A stretch of 64,000 bases of DNA, taken from the NCBI GenBank assembly GCA_011525845.1, contig WYBP01000017.1, positions 186,001-250,000 of the forward strand, given 5' to 3'. Position numbers and translations under genes: made by a program. Below, piece after piece: positions 39,546-48,775 of this stretch. The DNA comes from Gemmatimonadaceae bacterium (GTDB taxonomy: Bacteria > Gemmatimonadota > Gemmatimonadetes > Gemmatimonadales > Gemmatimonadaceae). Under the pieces are notes generated by a model. It was not told the DNA's origin and made no database searches. It saw only the letters and a list, made by a program, of their open reading frames with translations. Positions within the stretch are counted from its first letter, which is position 1. Each line of letters starts with the position of its first letter.

Positions 39546-39654
39546 GAGGTGGGAGGTGTGAGGTGTGAGGGGGCGGCCGAGGGATCGGTCGCCTTTTTCG
39601 TTTCGTCGCCGCGCGGGTCCTTACACCTCCCACCTCCCTCCTCCCACCTCCCGA
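39546..39654. repeat. Heptad repeat element E, inverted pair around a terminator
   Basis: GTGGGAG, GTGTGAG, GTGTGAG at 39549-39569 starting 7 nt after the stop, then the 39572-39598 terminator, then CTTACAC, CTCCCAC, CTCCCTC, CTCCCAC, CTCCCGA at 39620-39654. The outer arms can pair around the terminator hairpin. Confidence 0.9.
39572..39598 (+). terminator. Rho-independent terminator after the BsuPI gene
   Basis: Nine-bp stem GGCGGCCGA / TCGGTCGCC (one G-U pair) with loop GGGA and a following T5 tract, then CGTTT. Located 30 nt after the stop at 39541. Confidence 0.85.
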
Positions 39655-39695
39655 TCGCCGTTCGAACGTTATCTTCCCGAGCGCCGTATCCCTCC

Positions 39696-40724
39696 GTGCC
39701 CTCATCCACCCTCGGCCTTCCCGACGTGACCCCAACGCCAGCCGGCGACCTCGAGCTCCTCGCCCAACTCGCGCAGGCCCGCGGCGACATCGCGAAGCAG
39801 ATAAGCCGCCGCATCGTCGGTCAGCACCAGGTGGTGGACAACATGATCTCGGCCATCCTCGGCGGCGGCCACGTGCTGCTCGTCGGCGTGCCGGGGCTCG
39901 CGAAGACCCTCCTCATCCAGACCATCGCGCAGGCGCTCGACCTCGAGTTCTCGCGCGTGCAGTTCACGCCCGACCTGATGCCGAGCGACATCACCGGCAC
40001 CGAGCTGCTCGAGGAGGACCATGGCACCGGGAAGCGCGCCTTCACCTTCGCGCGCGGCCCGGTGTTCGGGAACATCGTCCTCGCCGACGAGATCAACCGC
40101 GCGCCGCCGAAGACGCAGGCCGCACTGCTCCAGGCCATGCAGGAGCACTCGGTGACCGTCTCGGGGAAGACCTACGCGCTCCCCGAGCCCTTCTTCGTGC
40201 TCGCCACGCAGAACCCCATCGAGCAGGAGGGCACCTACCACCTCCCCGAGGCGCAGCTCGACCGCTTCATGTACGAGCTCCGGATCGGGTACCCGACCGT
40301 GGCCGAGGAGGAGGAGATCGTCTCGAGCACCACCGGCGTGCAGGACCACACCGTGAAGCCCGTGCTCCCGGCGGACACGCTGCGGGAGATGATGCGGCTC
40401 GTGCGGCGGCTCCCCGCCCCGCCCGAGCTCGTGAGCTACGCCGTGAGCCTCGCGCGCGCCACGCGTCCCGACGAGCCGGGCGCCTCGGCGATGGTGAAGA
40501 AGTACATCAGCTTCGGCGCCGGCCCGCGCGCGGGGCAGTACCTCGTGCTCGGCGCCAAGGCGCGCGCGGCGATGGATGGCCGCACGGTGCCGGATCTCGA
40601 GGATGTGGATGCGGTCGCGTTCAGCGTGCTGCGCCACCGCGTGGTGCTGAACTTCCAGGCGGAGGCGGAGGGGATGGGGATCGAGAAGATCCTCGCGCTC
40701 GGGGGGCGGGCCAAGGGGAAGTAG
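39696..40724 (+). CDS. MoxR-family AAA+ ATPase
   Basis: 342 residues from GTG 39696 (a GTG at 39726 is an alternative). Walker A GVPGLAKTLLIQT, Walker B IVLADEINRAPPKTQ, sensor 1 ATQNPIEQEGTY, sensor 2 LGAKARA. MoxR proteins act as chaperones for metal or cofactor insertion, normally next to DUF58 and von Willebrand-domain genes; none follow here, the next gene being a secreted DUF2911 protein. Role therefore unassigned. Confidence 0.92.
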   Translation: MPSSTLGLPDVTPTPAGDLELLAQLAQARGDIAKQISRRIVGQHQVVDNMISAILGGGHVLLVGVPGLAKTLLIQTIAQALDLEFSRVQFTPDLMPSDITGTELLEEDHGTGKRAFTFARGPVFGNIVLADEINRAPPKTQAALLQAMQEHSVTVSGKTYALPEPFFVLATQNPIEQEGTYHLPEAQLDRFMYELRIGYPTVAEEEEIVSSTTGVQDHTVKPVLPADTLREMMRLVRRLPAPPELVSYAVSLARATRPDEPGASAMVKKYISFGAGPRAGQYLVLGAKARAAMDGRTVPDLEDVDAVAFSVLRHRVVLNFQAEAEGMGIEKILALGGRAKGK

Positions 40725-40800: not shown

Positions 40801-41352
40801 ATGTCCCGCCAGCCCCTCCTGCCGCACGCTGCGATCGCCCTCGCCGCGTGCCTTCTCTTCGCCCCCGGCGCCGCGGCGCAGGGCTACCCGTTCTCCCAGC
40901 GCGCGAGCGTCACGCAGAACGTCGCGTTCACGGAGATCACGGTCTCGTACGGCCGTCCCGTGGCGCGCGGCCGAGAGCTCTGGGGCAGGCTCGTCCCCTG
41001 GGACAGCGTCTGGCACCCCGGCGCCGACTCGGCGACAGTGATCCGGTTCAGCCGGGACGTGACCATCGAGGGGCGCGACCTGAAGGCCGGGGAGTACTCC
41101 CTCTGGCTGATTCCCAAGGAGCGCGGCGCCTGGACGCTGATCCTGAGCCGGGCGGCGCGTGTGTTCCACACCCCGTACCCCGGCGCCGAGCACGACGCCC
41201 TGCGGCTCGACATCGCGCCGGACAGCGCCTCGCACCTCGAGTCGATGTCGATCTACTTCCCCATGGTGCTGCGCGACGAGGCCGAGATGCGCGTGCAGTG
41301 GGGGACGCGGCTCGTGGCCGTCCGCCTCAAGGCGCCCTGGCGGCCTGCCTGA
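40801..41352 (+). CDS. DUF2911 secreted protein
   Basis: 183 residues. Signal peptide MSRQPLLPHAAIALAACLLFAPGAAAQ. Mature domain with SQRASVTQNVAFTEITVSYGRP, GELWGRLVPWDSVWHPGAD-like pattern and the KAGEYSLWLIPKE segment of DUF2911 (PF11138). Common in soil bacteria with predatory or copiotroph lifestyles; function unknown. Followed 37 bp later by a 9-bp GC hairpin (41390-41412). Confidence 0.82.
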   Translation: MSRQPLLPHAAIALAACLLFAPGAAAQGYPFSQRASVTQNVAFTEITVSYGRPVARGRELWGRLVPWDSVWHPGADSATVIRFSRDVTIEGRDLKAGEYSLWLIPKERGAWTLILSRAARVFHTPYPGAEHDALRLDIAPDSASHLESMSIYFPMVLRDEAEMRVQWGTRLVAVRLKAPWRPA

Positions 41353-41475: not shown

Positions 41476-44400
41476 GTGATACGGGTACGGGCGTTGGGCG
41501 ACGGGGTGGTGCAGCTCGGGCGCAAGCGGATCACGCTGGCGACCGAGGGCATCTTCGCACTGGCGTTCCATCTCGCCGTTCGTGCGGGGGAGCGGATCGG
41601 GCGCGACGAGCTCGTGGAGACCTTCTGGCCCGGGAGTGAGCCGACGAACGGCCGGCACGCGCTCCGGCAGATGATGTACCGGCTCCGGCAGAAGGGATTC
41701 GTCCTGGATGAGGAGTCGGGCGAGGAGCTCTACCTCGACCCTGCCCGGGTCGACTGCGACCTCTCGGCCGTGCTCGGCGAGGAGTGGCCCGAGACCGCCG
41801 ACGCCGCCGCCGTCGAGGCGGCCGGCCAGCCGACACCGACCTTCACCCGACACATCAGCGAGCGGTTCCAGGAGTGGAACGACGAACTGCGCGCGCGCGT
41901 CGAACGCCAGCATCGGCGCGCCGCGCTGCGCCAGATCGTGCGCGCCCGGCGCGAGGGGCGCTGGTCGGACCTCGAGGTGTGGGCGCGCCAAGTGCTCCGC
42001 TCGGATCCGCTGAACGAGGAGGCGACCCTGGCGCGCGCGGAGAGCGCGGCGATGGCCGGCTCGAAGGCGATGGCGCTCGAGATCCTGGACCAGTACATGG
42101 AGGAACTCGGCGACCGCGCAGCACAGATCGGATTGCCGGCGACGGTACTGCGGCGGCGGATCGCGGAGCGGAAGCCGGAGTGGCCGAACCGAGGGCCGCG
42201 TGAGGTGCCGCTCGTGGGGCGGGCGGAGCTGATGTCGAAGTTGACGGGGCTGGTGGATGCGGCGGGGAGGGGGGAAGGAAGTGCGGTTCTACTCTGGGGT
42301 GCTCCCGGTGTTGGAAAAAGCCGGATCGCTGACGAGGTGGTTTCATACGCGGCCCTCTCCGGTTTCCAGATTGCCTCGGTCGGAGCTTCGCGCTCAGCGC
42401 GCACCCTTCCTCTCGGAACGATGCTTTCCTTCGCCCCCGCACTTCTCGAGATGCCGGGCGCCGCAGGCTGCCATCCCTCTAGCCTCTCACTTCTTGAGCG
42501 AGCGCGGAACTACCAGCGCGAGCCGACCGCTCATGATCCACCACACGCCACTAGCGCAAGCGATACCTCCATCGCGCTGGCGCTGCTCGACCTGATCGAA
42601 TCTGTAAGCGCCGAACGGCGGCTACTACTTCACGTGGACGACCTGCACTACAGCGACTCGCGTTCTCGCGACTCGCTCGCCTTCCTCTTCGCGGAGTCAT
42701 CCGCATCGCGAGTCCTGTGGTTGACCACAAGTCGCGCGCGATTCGGTGCGGCTTCTGGGAGTCCGTCCGATCGCACCGCACTGATGGAGCGCTTAGTGCG
42801 CCCTCTAGAGGAAGACGCAGCTGTCGCGTTGGCTGAAGCGACGACAACGTCCTCTCAGCTCTCACTGTCTCCCGAAGAGACCCTCCAGATTGCTCGCGCA
42901 TCCGGAGGAAACCCGCTATTCGTACGCGAGCTCGCGATTCACTTCGCTCGCCGGCGCGCAGAAAGCCCTGTACCGCAGTCACTTGCGCAGCTAATGGAAG
43001 ATCGTCTCGCGAGACTCGACGCAGTCCAGACTCGCTTGCTTCGCCTCATCGCGCTACTGGGCGCGCATGCAACCATCCCGCGCATTCGCAACATCTCGAT
43101 GCTCCAAAGCGACGACATCGCTGTTGCGCTGGAGGTTCTTGAGCGAGAGGGAATGATTCGCATGAATGCGTCACACGTCATTACACTTCACGACTGCTGG
43201 CACACTGCAGTATTGGAAGGTACGAGTCCTGTCGCGCGCGCCGCGCTTAGCCTCGACTGTGCAGAGAGCCTAGCCACACACCCCGACAGTCTCGACGACG
43301 AGGTTCGTCGCTGCCGCGCAGCGGAGCTATACGAGGACGCGGGCGACCTGACGGCTTCTCACGCGCTGCTACTTCAGGCCGCCGACCAGCTGTCTGCTCG
43401 CGGACTCGACGCTAATGCGTGCGTCGTGCTTGAGCGCGCACTGAAGTCCGAACGCGACGCGACTCCACTCCTTCAGCATCGCATGAAGTACAGTCGGGCG
43501 CTCTTCAGCTGCGGCCGACTGTCGGAGTCACTGACAACGGCGTCAGAGACGCTGGAGAGATTCGGCCAGGCGCTTGAACGGGACCAAGGAACACGTGTTG
43601 CTCTATCGTGCCTGCAGCTGGACGCGCTTGCGAAGCTGCGTCAACAGCACAGGGACGCACTGAAATCGGTGGTGAACCTCGCCGCTGATCCGACGACACC
43701 CGTCGAAGCGAGACTACAAGCTTGCTTGACTGCGATCGCAGTCGCGTTCAACGACACATCATCAGAGGTCGAAGATGTGCTGTTCTCGATAGCCCATTCG
43801 ATTGAGCGCGCACCGCGACTTTCAGTCGCAGGGCAGCTCGTGCTACTCATTTACCACACGGAGCGCGGGGATCGAGCGAACGTGGACGCCACCGAGAGTC
43901 GACTCGCCGCACTTGAGTCTGAGCCGGTGTCAGACCAGTTGCGCTGCCGAACACTCAGATCACGCGCGCTTGCGCAGCGGTTCGCGGGAAATCGCATCCG
44001 CGCAGTTGAACTCGGCGAGCGCGCGTACGTGACTGCGATGCAGGGCGGACTTCTCGGAGATGCGACGTTCGCTGCGGAACACATGGTGTTCGCGGCGCTG
44101 GACGCATGTGATACGGATGCGGTCGAGTCCTGGTTGTTGCGCTGGGACTCTGCCAGCGTCACGTCCCGCTACTTCGAGCGTCGTCACGCGCGCACCCACG
44201 CTGAATGCCGAATTCTGATCGCGAAGGGTGATTTCGAGTCAGCGCTCGCGCAGTATGGCAATGAGGTCGCCGAGCTCACGTCCGATCCCATGGGGAAGCG
44301 GCGCGCCGTCGATCTCGCTGCGATCTCGCATTGTCTCGCAGCGCTTGGACGTAGGGACGAATGCTTGCGAGCGATCGACTCCGGCCTGCAAGTAGCGGAA

Positions 44401-44598
44401 GACAGTCGACCGTCGGGACAGGTTGACTACATGCTTGAAAGCATACTCTGCGCGCTTGCGCTGCTCGGTGAATCGCACCGAGCGACCGCTGTCGCTACTA
44501 GGTACCTGCAAAGACGACAACAAGAGTTCTCGTTTCCCATCCCACCCGCCTTCTCGACTCTCCAGCGTCAGCTAGTTGCTCTGCGCCATCACGGGTAG
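41476..44598 (+). CDS. BTAD/AAA/TPR signal-transducing transcription regulator, composition mosaic
   Basis: 1040 residues from GTG (AGGA ribosome-binding site about 10 nt upstream). Residues about 1-90 are an OmpR-like winged helix, with a DELVETFWPGSEPTNGRHALRQ-type strand; residues about 90-240 are a BTAD/TPR-like helical domain. A STAND-type ATPase has Walker A GAPGVGKSR at about 275-283 and Walker B LLLHVDDLHYSDS near 385. The rest (about 600-1040) is helical TPR-like. SARP/LuxR-MalT style regulators of this layout bind DNA and are controlled by a ligand or protein sensed by the TPR part. From about base 42280 the GC falls from the 77% of the upstream line to near 52% in some lines, with AT-rich codon choices, so the gene looks chimeric. 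Its last 27 bp overlap the convergent HD-GYP gene. Confidence 0.85.
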   Translation: MIRVRALGDGVVQLGRKRITLATEGIFALAFHLAVRAGERIGRDELVETFWPGSEPTNGRHALRQMMYRLRQKGFVLDEESGEELYLDPARVDCDLSAVLGEEWPETADAAAVEAAGQPTPTFTRHISERFQEWNDELRARVERQHRRAALRQIVRARREGRWSDLEVWARQVLRSDPLNEEATLARAESAAMAGSKAMALEILDQYMEELGDRAAQIGLPATVLRRRIAERKPEWPNRGPREVPLVGRAELMSKLTGLVDAAGRGEGSAVLLWGAPGVGKSRIADEVVSYAALSGFQIASVGASRSARTLPLGTMLSFAPALLEMPGAAGCHPSSLSLLERARNYQREPTAHDPPHATSASDTSIALALLDLIESVSAERRLLLHVDDLHYSDSRSRDSLAFLFAESSASRVLWLTTSRARFGAASGSPSDRTALMERLVRPLEEDAAVALAEATTTSSQLSLSPEETLQIARASGGNPLFVRELAIHFARRRAESPVPQSLAQLMEDRLARLDAVQTRLLRLIALLGAHATIPRIRNISMLQSDDIAVALEVLEREGMIRMNASHVITLHDCWHTAVLEGTSPVARAALSLDCAESLATHPDSLDDEVRRCRAAELYEDAGDLTASHALLLQAADQLSARGLDANACVVLERALKSERDATPLLQHRMKYSRALFSCGRLSESLTTASETLERFGQALERDQGTRVALSCLQLDALAKLRQQHRDALKSVVNLAADPTTPVEARLQACLTAIAVAFNDTSSEVEDVLFSIAHSIERAPRLSVAGQLVLLIYHTERGDRANVDATESRLAALESEPVSDQLRCRTLRSRALAQRFAGNRIRAVELGERAYVTAMQGGLLGDATFAAEHMVFAALDACDTDAVESWLLRWDSASVTSRYFERRHARTHAECRILIAKGDFESALAQYGNEVAELTSDPMGKRRAVDLAAISHCLAALGRRDECLRAIDSGLQVAEDSRPSGQVDYMLESILCALALLGESHRATAVATRYLQRRQQEFSFPIPPAFSTLQRQLVALRHHG

Positions 44599-45912
44599 GT
44601 CGGACGCGAGAGCCAGAACTGTACTCGAGTCGGGACTGACGGGATGCTCCGCAATCGCCAGTACTATCTCGCGACGAATCTCAGTCCAGACTTCGTCTGT
44701 GAGAATCGCGGCACAGATCTTCGGGTCGAACTGACGCCCACTCTCACGTCGAATCTCCGCTCTCACGACTTCTTCGCTGAGCGCCGGTCGATACGGGCGC
44801 GACGTGCTCATTGCGTCGATAGTATCGGCAAGGGCAATCACGCGCGCGCCAATCGGGATGTCCTCTCCCTGCGCTCCGTCTGGGTAGCCGCGTCCGTCCC
44901 ACGCTTCGTGATGATACTGCACCATCGGAACCAGGTCTTCGAAGTGAGACACCTTACAGACGAGTGCGGAGCCGCGCGACGCATGGGACTTCATCGTTTC
45001 GTACTCGGCGTCGGTTAGCCGCCCAGGCTTTCTAAGAATCGGCGCGAACTCCTCATATATCTTGCCCACGTCGTGCAACAGGGCCGCAGTCATAACGCGT
45101 TCAGTCAAGCGAGAACCCAGCCCGGCGGCCTTCGCGATCGCACGGGCGTAGCGCGCTACGCGCTGGGAGTGACCGGACGTGTACGGATCCCGCGCCTCAA
45201 TTGCAGCCACCATCAACTGGAGCAGCTCTTCGTTGATCTTCTGCAGTGCCACGTTGGTCTTGTACAGCTGCCGCATTCCCAGCATCGGTAGCGCCAGTGC
45301 CGCCGACAGCTCGGGACCAAATCGCACGTAGATGAACGCAAAGAAGAAAATCAGCGGAAACGCGAGCAAGTCGTATGTAGCGGAGAGTCGCATGCTGCTG
45401 ATCCAATGCGACTTTGTATCACGACCGCTCGCTACAGAGACGACAGTGCTTACCGCCAACTTGTTGACGACCAAGAACACGGCAACCATTGCGAGAAATG
45501 CCACCGCTGGAGGCGTACCGTCGAGAAGCGAGCCGCCACCGAGCGTCAGGTAGGTTGCGACTGCGAACGCCTCGGCGAAGACGAACTGAGACACGTTGAA
45601 CAGCGTCTTAATTGGCTCGCGGCGCGCGAGGAGCTCCGCTCCCAAGATGCTGGCGAAGACCGTGACGACCGCAGCGAAGTTCGGCGAGATGACGGCGATA
45701 CTCAGGAACGGAAGGAATCCAATGCTTCCGGCTGTCGCCTTAGACGTCTTGTATCCCAGGGCGGACGCGAGAAGACCAAATCCCGTGAAGAAGGCGGCTG
45801 CCTTCCACTGCTCCGAAGTCGGGATTGGGCCATATGCCAGCAACGCCGCAGACGCCAGCGCAGCGCCTACGGCAACCGTCTCGACGATCCGAACGACCCG
45901 AGTTTGACTCAT
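44572..45912 (-). CDS. HD-GYP-domain membrane protein, c-di-GMP phosphodiesterase-like
   Basis: 446 residues. Residues 1-215 hold about six membrane helices; the C-terminal domain is HD-GYP: H280-D281 in LLHDVGKIYEEF, H310 in MKSHASRG, H334-H335 in QYHHEAWDG, GYP at 342-344, and LADTIDAMS. Such enzymes hydrolyse c-di-GMP; the membrane part probably senses something. Lower GC than the surroundings. Starts 36 nt after the stop of the micro-ORF, with a 6-bp hairpin between, and its 3' end overlaps the BTAD-regulator gene. No ribosome-binding site is evident before the ATG. Confidence 0.9.
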   Translation of the reverse strand: MSQTRVVRIVETVAVGAALASAALLAYGPIPTSEQWKAAAFFTGFGLLASALGYKTSKATAGSIGFLPFLSIAVISPNFAAVVTVFASILGAELLARREPIKTLFNVSQFVFAEAFAVATYLTLGGGSLLDGTPPAVAFLAMVAVFLVVNKLAVSTVVSVASGRDTKSHWISSMRLSATYDLLAFPLIFFFAFIYVRFGPELSAALALPMLGMRQLYKTNVALQKINEELLQLMVAAIEARDPYTSGHSQRVARYARAIAKAAGLGSRLTERVMTAALLHDVGKIYEEFAPILRKPGRLTDAEYETMKSHASRGSALVCKVSHFEDLVPMVQYHHEAWDGRGYPDGAQGEDIPIGARVIALADTIDAMSTSRPYRPALSEEVVRAEIRRESGRQFDPKICAAILTDEVWTEIRREIVLAIAEHPVSPDSSTVLALASDLPVMAQSN

Positions 45913-45923
45913 GAAGAAGTGAG

Positions 45924-45940
45924 GAGGACCCCCCGTCCTC
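45924..45940 (-). promoter_or_regulatory. Hairpin between the micro-ORF and the HD-GYP gene
   Basis: Six-bp stem GAGGAC / GTCCTC with a 5-nt loop CCCCC (minus strand GGGGG). It could lower read-through into the HD-GYP gene and so favour the micro-ORF product. Confidence 0.45.
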
Positions 45941-45948
45941 GCTATTTA

Positions 45949-46020
45949 CTAAATCCAGCTGGCCGAATCACCCAACACGATCGCGCAGATCGCGCTCACC
46001 AGTGACGAGATGTACGACAT
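45949..46020 (-). CDS. 23-residue hydrophobic peptide, micro-ORF
   Basis: Reads MSYISSLVSAIC followed by AIVLGDSASWI, stop TAG. It is too short for an ordinary gene call but is preceded by a very strong Shine-Dalgarno sequence (GGGGAGGTGA) ending about 6 nt before its ATG, while the HD-GYP gene has none. Hydrophobic middle, Cys, and polar C-terminus resemble secreted signal peptides. Lies 36 nt ahead of the HD-GYP gene on the same strand. Its translation and any function are inferred from position and ribosome-binding site only. Confidence 0.55.
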   Translation of the reverse strand: MSYISSLVSAICAIVLGDSASWI

Positions 46021-46117
46021 CGAGACTCACCTCCCCTTTGACAACATCACCCGATACTCACCGGGCGTCTGACAAGGTTCGGCTCCGCTCGTGCGTCCTG
46101 ATTGACGCTTCCGCTCT

Positions 46118-46139
46118 GTTCTCTCCGCTTGGAGAGAAC
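46118..46139. promoter_or_regulatory. Perfect hairpin upstream of the micro-ORF
   Basis: Nine-bp stem GTTCTCTCC / GGAGAGAAC with loop GCTT, in the leader about 100 nt upstream of the micro-ORF ATG. No T tract on either side, so it is more likely an operator or leader structure than a terminator. Confidence 0.5.
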
Positions 46140-46198
46140 GGGGGGTACCCTTTAGTCCTCGCTCGTTAAATGGTCCTCGGAACCCTCGCGGTGACGAC

Positions 46199-46246: not shown

Positions 46247-47029
46247 CTAACGCGTCGGCGTCCGCCGATCCTCGACCACCACGTTCGATGCCGCCGACGC
46301 GACCGCCGGACCCATCCACCGGTTGGTCGCATCCAACACCGCCAACACCGCCGCCGTCTCCGCGCTGTCGCGCACCTCGCAGCTCCCGGTCAGCAGCACG
46401 GACTCACGCCCGCTCCGCGCCAGCACCGCCGCGAACACGAACTCGCGCTCGAACGCACTGATCACCCGCGCACCCTCCAGCGAGAAGATCCCGGCCACCG
46501 GCCCGGCCATCGACAACGCCATCAACGCCGCCCGGGCCGCCACATCTACACGGCTCCGGTCACTCTGCAGCCCCTCCTCCGCCTCGCCGGCGAAGTGCTC
46601 GGCCCCCACCCGCAACGTCACCTTGCAGGTGACCCCGCGAGCCCGGGAACCGCGGACCTCCACATCCTCGAAGTACACGGGCCGTCCCAGCTTCCCCGCC
46701 CCGTTCACCTCGGCCGTCTGCGTCCCCGTCCCGCTCGTCGGGGTCGGACGCTTCGACGTCGCAGCGATCGAGATCTTCCGGTGGTCCACCCGAAGCCCCA
46801 GCTGCGCCATCAACGCGCTCTCGATGTTCCGCACCACCTGCTTCGGCGGGGTGTCCCCCGTCACCAGCACGTGGATCGCATCCACCCCTCCACTCTCCGT
46901 CGCCGTGATCCGCACCGACACGACATCCGTCAGCGACGCGATCAACTCCTCCGCGCGCTGCAACGGAAGCACTGACCCGGCGATCGGCGAACCTCCACCC
47001 GCACTGTTCTGCTGTGGCTGCGGTGTCAC
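46247..47029 (-). CDS. Conserved-type protein of unknown function, two-domain
   Basis: 260 residues from GTG 47029 with AGGA 7 nt upstream; the longer reading from 47161 begins in sequence without protein-like character. N-terminal domain: VVSVRITATESGGVDAIHVL and PPKQVVRNIESALMAQLGLRVDHRKISIA; C-terminal domain begins VYFEDVEVRGSRARGVTCKVTLRV and contains RSRVDVAARAALMAL. I recognise this pattern from hypothetical proteins of other phyla but not a function. It is downstream of the NtrC-type gene on the same strand, 147 nt away. Confidence 0.65.
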   Translation of the reverse strand: MTPQPQQNSAGGGSPIAGSVLPLQRAEELIASLTDVVSVRITATESGGVDAIHVLVTGDTPPKQVVRNIESALMAQLGLRVDHRKISIAATSKRPTPTSGTGTQTAEVNGAGKLGRPVYFEDVEVRGSRARGVTCKVTLRVGAEHFAGEAEEGLQSDRSRVDVAARAALMALSMAGPVAGIFSLEGARVISAFEREFVFAAVLARSGRESVLLTGSCEVRDSAETAAVLAVLDATNRWMGPAVASAASNVVVEDRRTPTR

Positions 47030-47176
47030 GTATCCTGGGGCGAAACGGTGGGAATCAATGCATCGCGACAACTGCCTACTTTCTGCACGGTCTCCCCGGC
47101 GAGCCCCAACCCAGGATCCCTCCCTGTCTCCAATCTTGTCAGTTCCGGCCCCTAAGGGCAAGAAAATGGTCCTGCA

Positions 47177-48775
<1,599 letters not shown>

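Follow-up and report, generated by a model that had tools for sequence, protein, structure and literature searches.

A polymorphic micro-ORF and MASE9-HD-GYP cassette in Gemmatimonadota suggests peptide signalling through a membrane cyclic di-GMP phosphodiesterase

Why does a 23-codon open reading frame (ORF) with a strong Shine-Dalgarno (SD) sequence stand ahead of a gene for a predicted membrane cyclic di-GMP (c-di-GMP) phosphodiesterase? This question is raised by a stretch of 64,000 nucleotides (the window) from Gemmatimonadaceae bacterium (GCA_011525845.1, contig WYBP01000017.1, positions 186,001 to 250,000). The original prediction proposed a peptide-sensing circuit made of a micro-ORF peptide, a membrane phosphodiesterase sensor and a tetratricopeptide repeat (TPR) regulator. 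Its peptide and membrane-phosphodiesterase part is well supported by comparative genomics, namely by a conserved ORF, coding constraint and co-divergence with the sensor, whereas its TPR link is supported only by the conserved convergent position and shared polymorphism of the regulator, the architecture of which is not that of an RRNPP protein. We consider it fairly probable that the locus is a pherotype-like peptide-signalling cassette with the membrane MASE9-HD-GYP c-di-GMP phosphodiesterase as its sensor. The features at its centre are the following.

45949 to 46020, minus strand: micro-ORF encoding the putative pro-peptide MSYISSLVSAICAIVLGDSASWI (ORF reading, orthologous micro-ORFs, and the ratio of nonsynonymous to synonymous changes, pN/pS)
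45952 to 45969, minus strand: predicted C-terminal signal segment DSASWI, putatively released by processing (allelic edge in the last codons; Trp and the composition at positions W-4 and W-5)
44572 to 45912, minus strand: MASE9-HD-GYP membrane protein, a c-di-GMP phosphodiesterase by prediction and candidate sensor of the peptide (Pfam, catalytic residues, AlphaFold2 model)

To judge from sequence conservation, the micro-ORF is a real coding ORF that is kept across a bacterial order. Both the 23-residue frame and the strong SD claimed for it are present in the window, the latter as GGGGAGGTGA at 46036-46027. Orthologues were sought in 61 related genomes with the HD-GYP protein as query, and the matches reached other families of the order. 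Short ORFs ahead of homologous HD-GYP genes had been proposed as a check, and all 40 orthologous Gemmatimonadota loci with intact upstream DNA carry one of 14-35 codons before the MASE9-HD-GYP gene; the refuting outcome foreseen for relatives, a lack of conserved short ORFs, did not occur. Nearly all are preceded by a strong SD (that of L020 is weak), and the length is exactly 23 codons in all eight within-genus loci compared (complete ORFs). The other check, synonymous-rate bias, revealed constraint: pN/pS was 0.54, compared with 1.02 ± 0.23 for column-shuffled alignments (1/500 shuffles as low), on the small basis of 22 codons in eight sequences. The two other frames gave higher ratios. The RNA around the ORF is strongly conserved on its own account, which would also be expected if the frame had arisen by chance behind an SD belonging to a non-coding RNA. 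Codon bias, the fixed 23-codon length in the genus, the Trp-containing tail and the peptides found in other phyla nevertheless make this explanation extremely improbable, and a chance ORF was rejected on conservation and codon bias.

The encoded peptides are hydrophobic, have few charges and match no known small-protein family in NCBIfam. A Trp lies among the final four residues of 37/40 peptides; position W-5 is occupied by A, G or S in 84% (background 32%) and position W-4 by D, E, G or N in 89% (background 15%). This composition resembles that of a processed C-terminal peptide. In the proposed cassette, the micro-ORF would yield a pro-peptide of 14-35 residues in which a hydrophobic leader precedes some six C-terminal residues, typically [D/E/G]-x-x-x-W-x.

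With regard to the HD-GYP protein, the domains assigned to it by the original prediction, including about six membrane helices, were recovered. Pfam HD_5 (1.3e-31) and MASE9 (5.9e-7) both scored above the cut-off, and in the confident AlphaFold2 model (predicted local distance difference test score 90) a long helix connects about six membrane helices to the HD domain. The HDxGK and GYP motifs are complete, and the catalytic residues are invariant across 27 orthologues. By its domains and motifs the protein belongs among the HD-GYP phosphodiesterases with a MASE9 sensor, and it is predicted to hydrolyze c-di-GMP. As had also been claimed, no obvious SD lies close to its ATG. The open-access papers searched named no ligand or paired peptide for MASE9, and no pairing of a peptide with an HD-GYP protein was found in the open-access literature searched, subscription papers and preprints being outside its scope.

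If the HD-GYP protein senses the peptide, the two should vary together. In partial Mantel tests with flanking-gene distance held constant, which can be inflated by shared ancestry, peptide distances correlated with those of the HD-GYP sensor (membrane) part, both when the final six residues were compared (partial r 0.33, p 0.0005) and when the whole peptide was (partial r 0.61, p < 0.0005). No correlation was found with the catalytic part (in the same order, -0.11, p 0.88 and 0.04, p 0.35) or with the 304-aa protein encoded upstream. At the level of sequence, the peptide is thus seen to vary with the sensor domain as peptide pheromones do with their receptors. The co-oriented downstream MASE9-HD-GYP protein would be the membrane sensor of the peptide, its membrane domain would set specificity, and peptide binding would alter c-di-GMP hydrolysis.

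The variation is not spread evenly along the DNA. It is concentrated in a cassette which also takes in part of the convergent neighbouring gene.

42475 to 45969, no strand assigned: polymorphic cassette, approximate extent, projected from its edges in other genomes
41476 to 44598, plus strand: SARP-like/AAA_16-STAND/TPR regulator, convergent to the HD-GYP gene (Pfam, orthologues, structural model, PDB profiles)

Two close within-genus pairs keep 91-95% identity in their flanking proteins, while the values are 51-53% in the HD-GYP membrane part, 74-77% in its catalytic part and 40-43% in the regulator. A third pair (G002/G011) shares one allele, with 93/92% identity in the HD-GYP protein and 82% in the regulator. 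The divergent stretch runs from the last micro-ORF codons through the HD-GYP gene to the TPR part of the regulator, whose DNA-binding end is conserved and whose AAA-TPR part falls to about 20-40%. At the DNA level, the drop begins within the final codons of the micro-ORF: between L002 and L005 the RNA is 96% identical and codons 1-18 are 91% identical, compared with 45% for the last codons and 54-65% for the HD-GYP gene. The same edge is found in an independent pair of another family (L025/L027), which is near-identical up to codon 20 and then changes abruptly.

Genome assemblies break at the same place. Contigs of four metagenome bins (G008, G009, G038 and G046) end within the micro-ORF, and in G092, G096 and G134 the end of the upstream contig recurs exactly at that of the downstream contig over 141, 127 and 149 nt, respectively, as at assembly-graph branch points. 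In an approximate tally made by hand, from which four genomes possibly without the locus were excluded, a contig end separates or cuts the HD-GYP side of the 304-aa gene in 12/45 genomes, compared with 3/49 for separation on the sigma-54 side (Fisher p 0.01). In one metagenome bin (G248), near-identical ends enclose two different alleles, L241 on contig C75 and L242 on contig C156. Their RNA and first codons are near-identical, and the micro-ORF tails then differ (MTYLTALICSLCLGGWITSA and MTYLVSLITFALGGWMVTTG). Identity between the two HD-GYP proteins is 59% for the sensor and 73% for the catalytic part, after which 238 nt inside the regulator are 99.6% identical. The alleles may come from different strains or both belong to a single genome. 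As in pherotype loci, alleles of the putative signal and sensor diverge far beyond their flanks and coexist in one metagenome bin. Because alleles coexist in metagenome bins, selection on the cassette can be tested directly.

A micro-protein subunit that stays in the membrane and regulates its cognate HD-GYP protein directly, with no cell-cell signalling, would also be expected to diverge together with the sensor domain. Small membrane proteins are known to regulate sensor kinases and transporters, and peptides of 14-35 hydrophobic residues with few charges would suit such a role, as would the partner with its roughly six modelled membrane helices. However, the polymorphism falls mainly in the short polar tail at the C-terminus, the alleles coexist in one population, and the peptides of the Actinomycetota loci described below look, from their sequence, like cleavable signal peptides. 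We therefore regard a non-secreted subunit as improbable.

Related arrangements were found outside the phylum. In four Actinomycetota genomes (loci L190-L193; genomes G062, G063, G070 and G069), two tandem signal-peptide-like short ORFs, for example MSRLLGKFPRVAFYALLLVSLALASGAGRKWS and MKKVLFRNRYVFGLFVLLAFALASGAGVKWS, lie about 150-460 nt upstream of the HD-GYP match and end in KWS, KWD, KWA or similar; the four MASE9-HD-GYP proteins are 57-60% identical to one another's reference. Single short peptides were found in a Bacillota bin (MLFRIIKALFAVAALVFAGGASWQVG), in a bin labelled Thermaceae (this one lacking Trp) and in a bin labelled Slackia. Of the signal-peptide-like short peptides upstream of related HD-GYP genes in Actinomycetota and Bacillota, most contain Trp. 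Several other MASE9-like loci lack such a peptide, so the association is not universal, and an order search around the Bacillota locus returned one further genome and no further orthologue. In L098, a DUF5317 gene follows the HD-GYP gene. We tentatively propose, with somewhat more doubt than confidence, a new class of peptide signalling in which micro-ORF pro-peptides are sensed by MASE9-HD-GYP proteins and cell-cell signalling is linked to c-di-GMP, with polymorphic cassettes in a new RNA in Gemmatimonadota, tandem peptides in Actinomycetota, and members in Bacillota.

The Gemmatimonadota micro-ORF is embedded in a structured RNA. The 9-bp hairpin before it and the 6-bp hairpin after it, both noted originally, do exist (GTTCTCTCC-AAGC-GGAGAGAAC at 46139-46118 and GAGGAC..GTCCTC at 45940-45924), and both turned out to be pieces of a larger conserved RNA with the following parts.

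46134 to 46146, minus strand: 5' strand of the long-range helix P1, ACCCCCCGTTCTC (covariation)
46118 to 46139, minus strand: hairpin P2, the 9-bp hairpin
46079 to 46091, minus strand: 5' strand of helix P3, CGAGCGGAGCCGA, partner of the SD region
46037 to 46078, minus strand: apical part of P3 with hairpin P4; the sequence varies and the hairpin is retained
46021 to 46036, minus strand: SD of the micro-ORF, which is the 3' strand of P3
45928 to 45940, minus strand: 3' strand of P1, GAGGACGGGGGGT, 8 nt past the micro-ORF stop and overlapping the 6-bp hairpin at 45924-45940 (covariation)

In P3, which has two tandem G.A motifs, the SD region GGGAGGTGACGC is paired with GCGGAGCC(G/A)ACC. Across the loci, the ATG follows the start of the 5' strand of P1 by about 113-147 nt, and 3-23 nt separate the stop codon from the 3' strand, which places the micro-ORF inside the P1 loop and the 3' strand beside the HD-GYP start. 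In the genus of the window, P1 takes up some of the bases of P2 and of the 6-bp hairpin, so that these two hairpins are alternatives to part of P1. The sequence of P1 differs between groups while its pairing is retained. When this covariation was tested by partner permutation, the strands with their own partners had a summed score of 745.5, compared with 570 ± 23 for permuted partners (0/2000 permutations reached 745.5), and with one representative per group to 400, compared with 319 ± 16 (0/5000).

A search with the Rfam 15 covariance models returned a single match with E ≤ 1, which was on the other strand and far below its gathering score; a known riboswitch or Rfam RNA was therefore rejected. 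The open-access papers searched contain no description of such an RNA, and no sigma-70-like promoter was found upstream. A strict P3 pattern occurs in 59/249 genomes of the phylum, all 59 from the order of the window; some of these matches were checked for their neighbourhood, and part are coding-sequence look-alikes. A repeated element was rejected, since no genome has more than a few matches to the loose pattern, and those bearing a micro-ORF sit before HD-GYP genes. Apparent double copies were explained by overlapping contig ends in three genomes and by two alleles in one. The element is a covarying structure outside Rfam with an embedded coding ORF.

Because this RNA pairs the SD and closes around the ORF beside the HD-GYP start, synthesis of peptide and sensor is probably coupled: the RNA would time peptide synthesis and tie peptide production to HD-GYP translation. 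The same geometry could also be that of a translational attenuator, in which ribosomes on the micro-ORF open or keep P1 and their stalling near the Trp codon or at the stop sets HD-GYP expression, the peptide having no role outside the ribosome. The enclosure of the ORF by P1, the 3' strand of which lies so close to the stop, the lack of an SD for the HD-GYP gene in the window and the Trp near the stop codon in 37/40 loci would all be accounted for by such a cis-acting leader peptide. Yet the tail alleles change together with the sensor domain, which is not predicted for a peptide acting on the ribosome; peptides also stand beside related HD-GYP genes of other phyla, with no GAGCGGAGC motif observed next to them; and the HD-GYP gene of some relatives has its own SD (L009, for example). 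The edges of the alleles, a co-divergence confined to the sensor and the occurrence of peptides beyond the phylum all tell against a leader peptide alone. We judge it unlikely as the full explanation, while leader-peptide and signal roles are not exclusive.

The adjacent convergent TPR regulator of the original prediction was recovered as an AAA_16/STAND protein of 1040 aa, comprising a SARP-like winged helix, the AAA_16/STAND module and TPR-type helical repeats; its 3' end overlaps that of the HD-GYP gene by 27 bp. Among its orthologues, AAA_16 was detected in 18/18, Trans_reg_C in 14/18 (with weak E-values), BTAD in 4/18 and TPR families in up to 7/18. The predicted structure contains a long helical repeat, and the PDB profile matches include the repeats of MalT, PH0952 and NprR. 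The NprR match (1.4e-4) is surpassed by MalT and unrelated TPR proteins with better E-values, and the profiles cover the sugar-responsive MalT and peptide-responsive NprR repeats alike. RRNPP regulators are cytoplasmic proteins of about 300 aa in which an N-terminal helix-turn-helix is directly followed by TPRs. Membership of this family was rejected, as a 1040-aa SARP/STAND/TPR architecture does not fit it. The proposed link between regulator and peptide retains the conserved convergent position (17/20 loci of the family) and the shared polymorphism; covariation of the peptide with the TPR part was sought and none was found, the distances being saturated. On the grounds of gene order and shared polymorphism, the regulator is probably part of the circuit, as a further co-polymorphic member serving as output or second sensor.

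The regulator is structurally similar to STAND and NLR proteins. This similarity, together with a STAND ATPase joined to a hypervariable TPR part and the allelic replacement of the entire cassette, could also indicate a polymorphic immunity or self-recognition locus, in which the STAND-TPR protein would be an NLR-like sensor, the micro-ORF a small toxin or trigger, and phages or kin competition the drivers of hypervariability. However, the SARP-like DNA-binding end of the regulator is conserved, the HD-GYP catalytic site is intact, and peptide divergence follows the HD-GYP sensor rather than the TPR part (with its saturated distances). We consider an immunity locus very improbable.

The order [sigma-54 regulator]-[304-aa protein]-[RNA + micro-ORF]-[HD-GYP]-convergent-[SARP/STAND-TPR regulator] is shared across the family, and the regulator is also found near the HD-GYP gene in several loci of a second family. 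The outer genes in the window are as follows.

46247 to 47161, minus strand: 304-aa upstream neighbour, conserved, outside the polymorphic part
47177 to 48775, minus strand: sigma-54-type regulator gene, conserved outer neighbour
39549 to 40724, plus strand: MoxR ATPase gene, conserved outer neighbour

The 304-aa protein matches no Pfam or NCBIfam family. A homologue with 30% identity is encoded just upstream of the peptide and MASE9-HD-GYP gene in the Bacillota bin (L128:2881-3519); it shows a weak LeuA_dimer match (9e-4, below the cut-off). In several orthologues (G031:C7, G034:C19, G049:C34, G052:C69 and others), the match is split or contains one or two in-frame stops, which may reflect read-through at the match end or gene decay. 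A DUF2911 gene lies at 40801-41352 and was not found at the corresponding place in the 20 relatives compared.

Several observations weigh against a peptide-signalling cassette. Three of the 40 peptides lack Trp in the tail, and an N-terminal Lys or Arg is present in 7/40 Gemmatimonadota peptides and missing from most, which are thus not classical Sec signal peptides. No dedicated exporter or protease was identified, no search aimed at one having been made. The small basis of the pN/pS test, the possible inflation of the Mantel correlations, the lack of correlation with the saturated TPR distances and the fit of the RNA to a leader peptide count in the same direction. Furthermore, we infer processing, export or secretion, peptide binding, the c-di-GMP output, the role of the regulator and translational coupling from sequence and gene context. 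If peptide signalling is nevertheless correct, a dedicated peptide signal would act straight on a membrane receptor that degrades c-di-GMP, in place of a histidine kinase or a regulator of imported peptides, and the MASE9 sensor domain would gain a candidate ligand class, with many natural allele pairs for specificity tests. To our knowledge, peptide quorum sensing is hardly known in diderm bacteria.

Among known systems, ComRS/XIP of streptococci uses a very short pro-peptide ORF, the last 7-8 residues of which carry a Trp motif and form the mature signal (PMC5131902). The sequences described here show the features of a ComRS-type pro-pheromone, namely a short ORF, a hydrophobic leader, a Trp-containing C-terminal segment and co-divergence of peptide and putative receptor, and a TPR-type regulator again belongs to the proposed circuit. 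In contrast, the likely receptor is a membrane HD-GYP phosphodiesterase, and its sensor domain, rather than the TPR protein, is the co-divergent partner; the TPR protein is a 1040-aa SARP-like/STAND protein and not an Rgg-type RRNPP regulator; the host is a member of Gemmatimonadota; and a structured RNA surrounds the ORF. In ComQXPA of Bacillus, a signal precursor and a membrane sensor form one highly polymorphic cassette, and pherotypes coexist (PMC4408185). The present locus shares this polymorphism of signal and membrane sensor with coexisting alleles, whereas its output would be c-di-GMP hydrolysis and the SARP/STAND regulator. None of the annotated neighbours in the window was recognised as an isoprenyl transferase (ComQ), AgrB, histidine kinase or response regulator, for which no dedicated search was made. 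Since the TPR protein is not an RRNPP regulator and neither ComQ nor a histidine kinase was recognised, the locus was not filed under ComRS or ComQXPA.

Riboswitch-controlled or attenuator leader peptides are known from downstream-peptide RNA, TnaC and ErmCL. Like these, the locus has a structured RNA over a short ORF, with the ORF within a long-range helix; unlike them, it has no Rfam match, its ORF is polymorphic together with the downstream protein, and peptides accompany related HD-GYP genes elsewhere. The regulator resembles AfsR/SARP and MalT-like STAND-TPR regulators in its SARP-like winged helix, AAA_16/STAND ATPase and TPR superhelix, and differs from them in an AAA-TPR part that is hypervariable within a genus. 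The sensor corresponds to MASE9-HD-GYP phosphodiesterases in its Pfam MASE9 and HD_5 domains and complete HD-GYP motif. The way in which the conserved micro-ORF varies with the sensor part of the enzyme suggests an undescribed form of bacterial peptide signalling.

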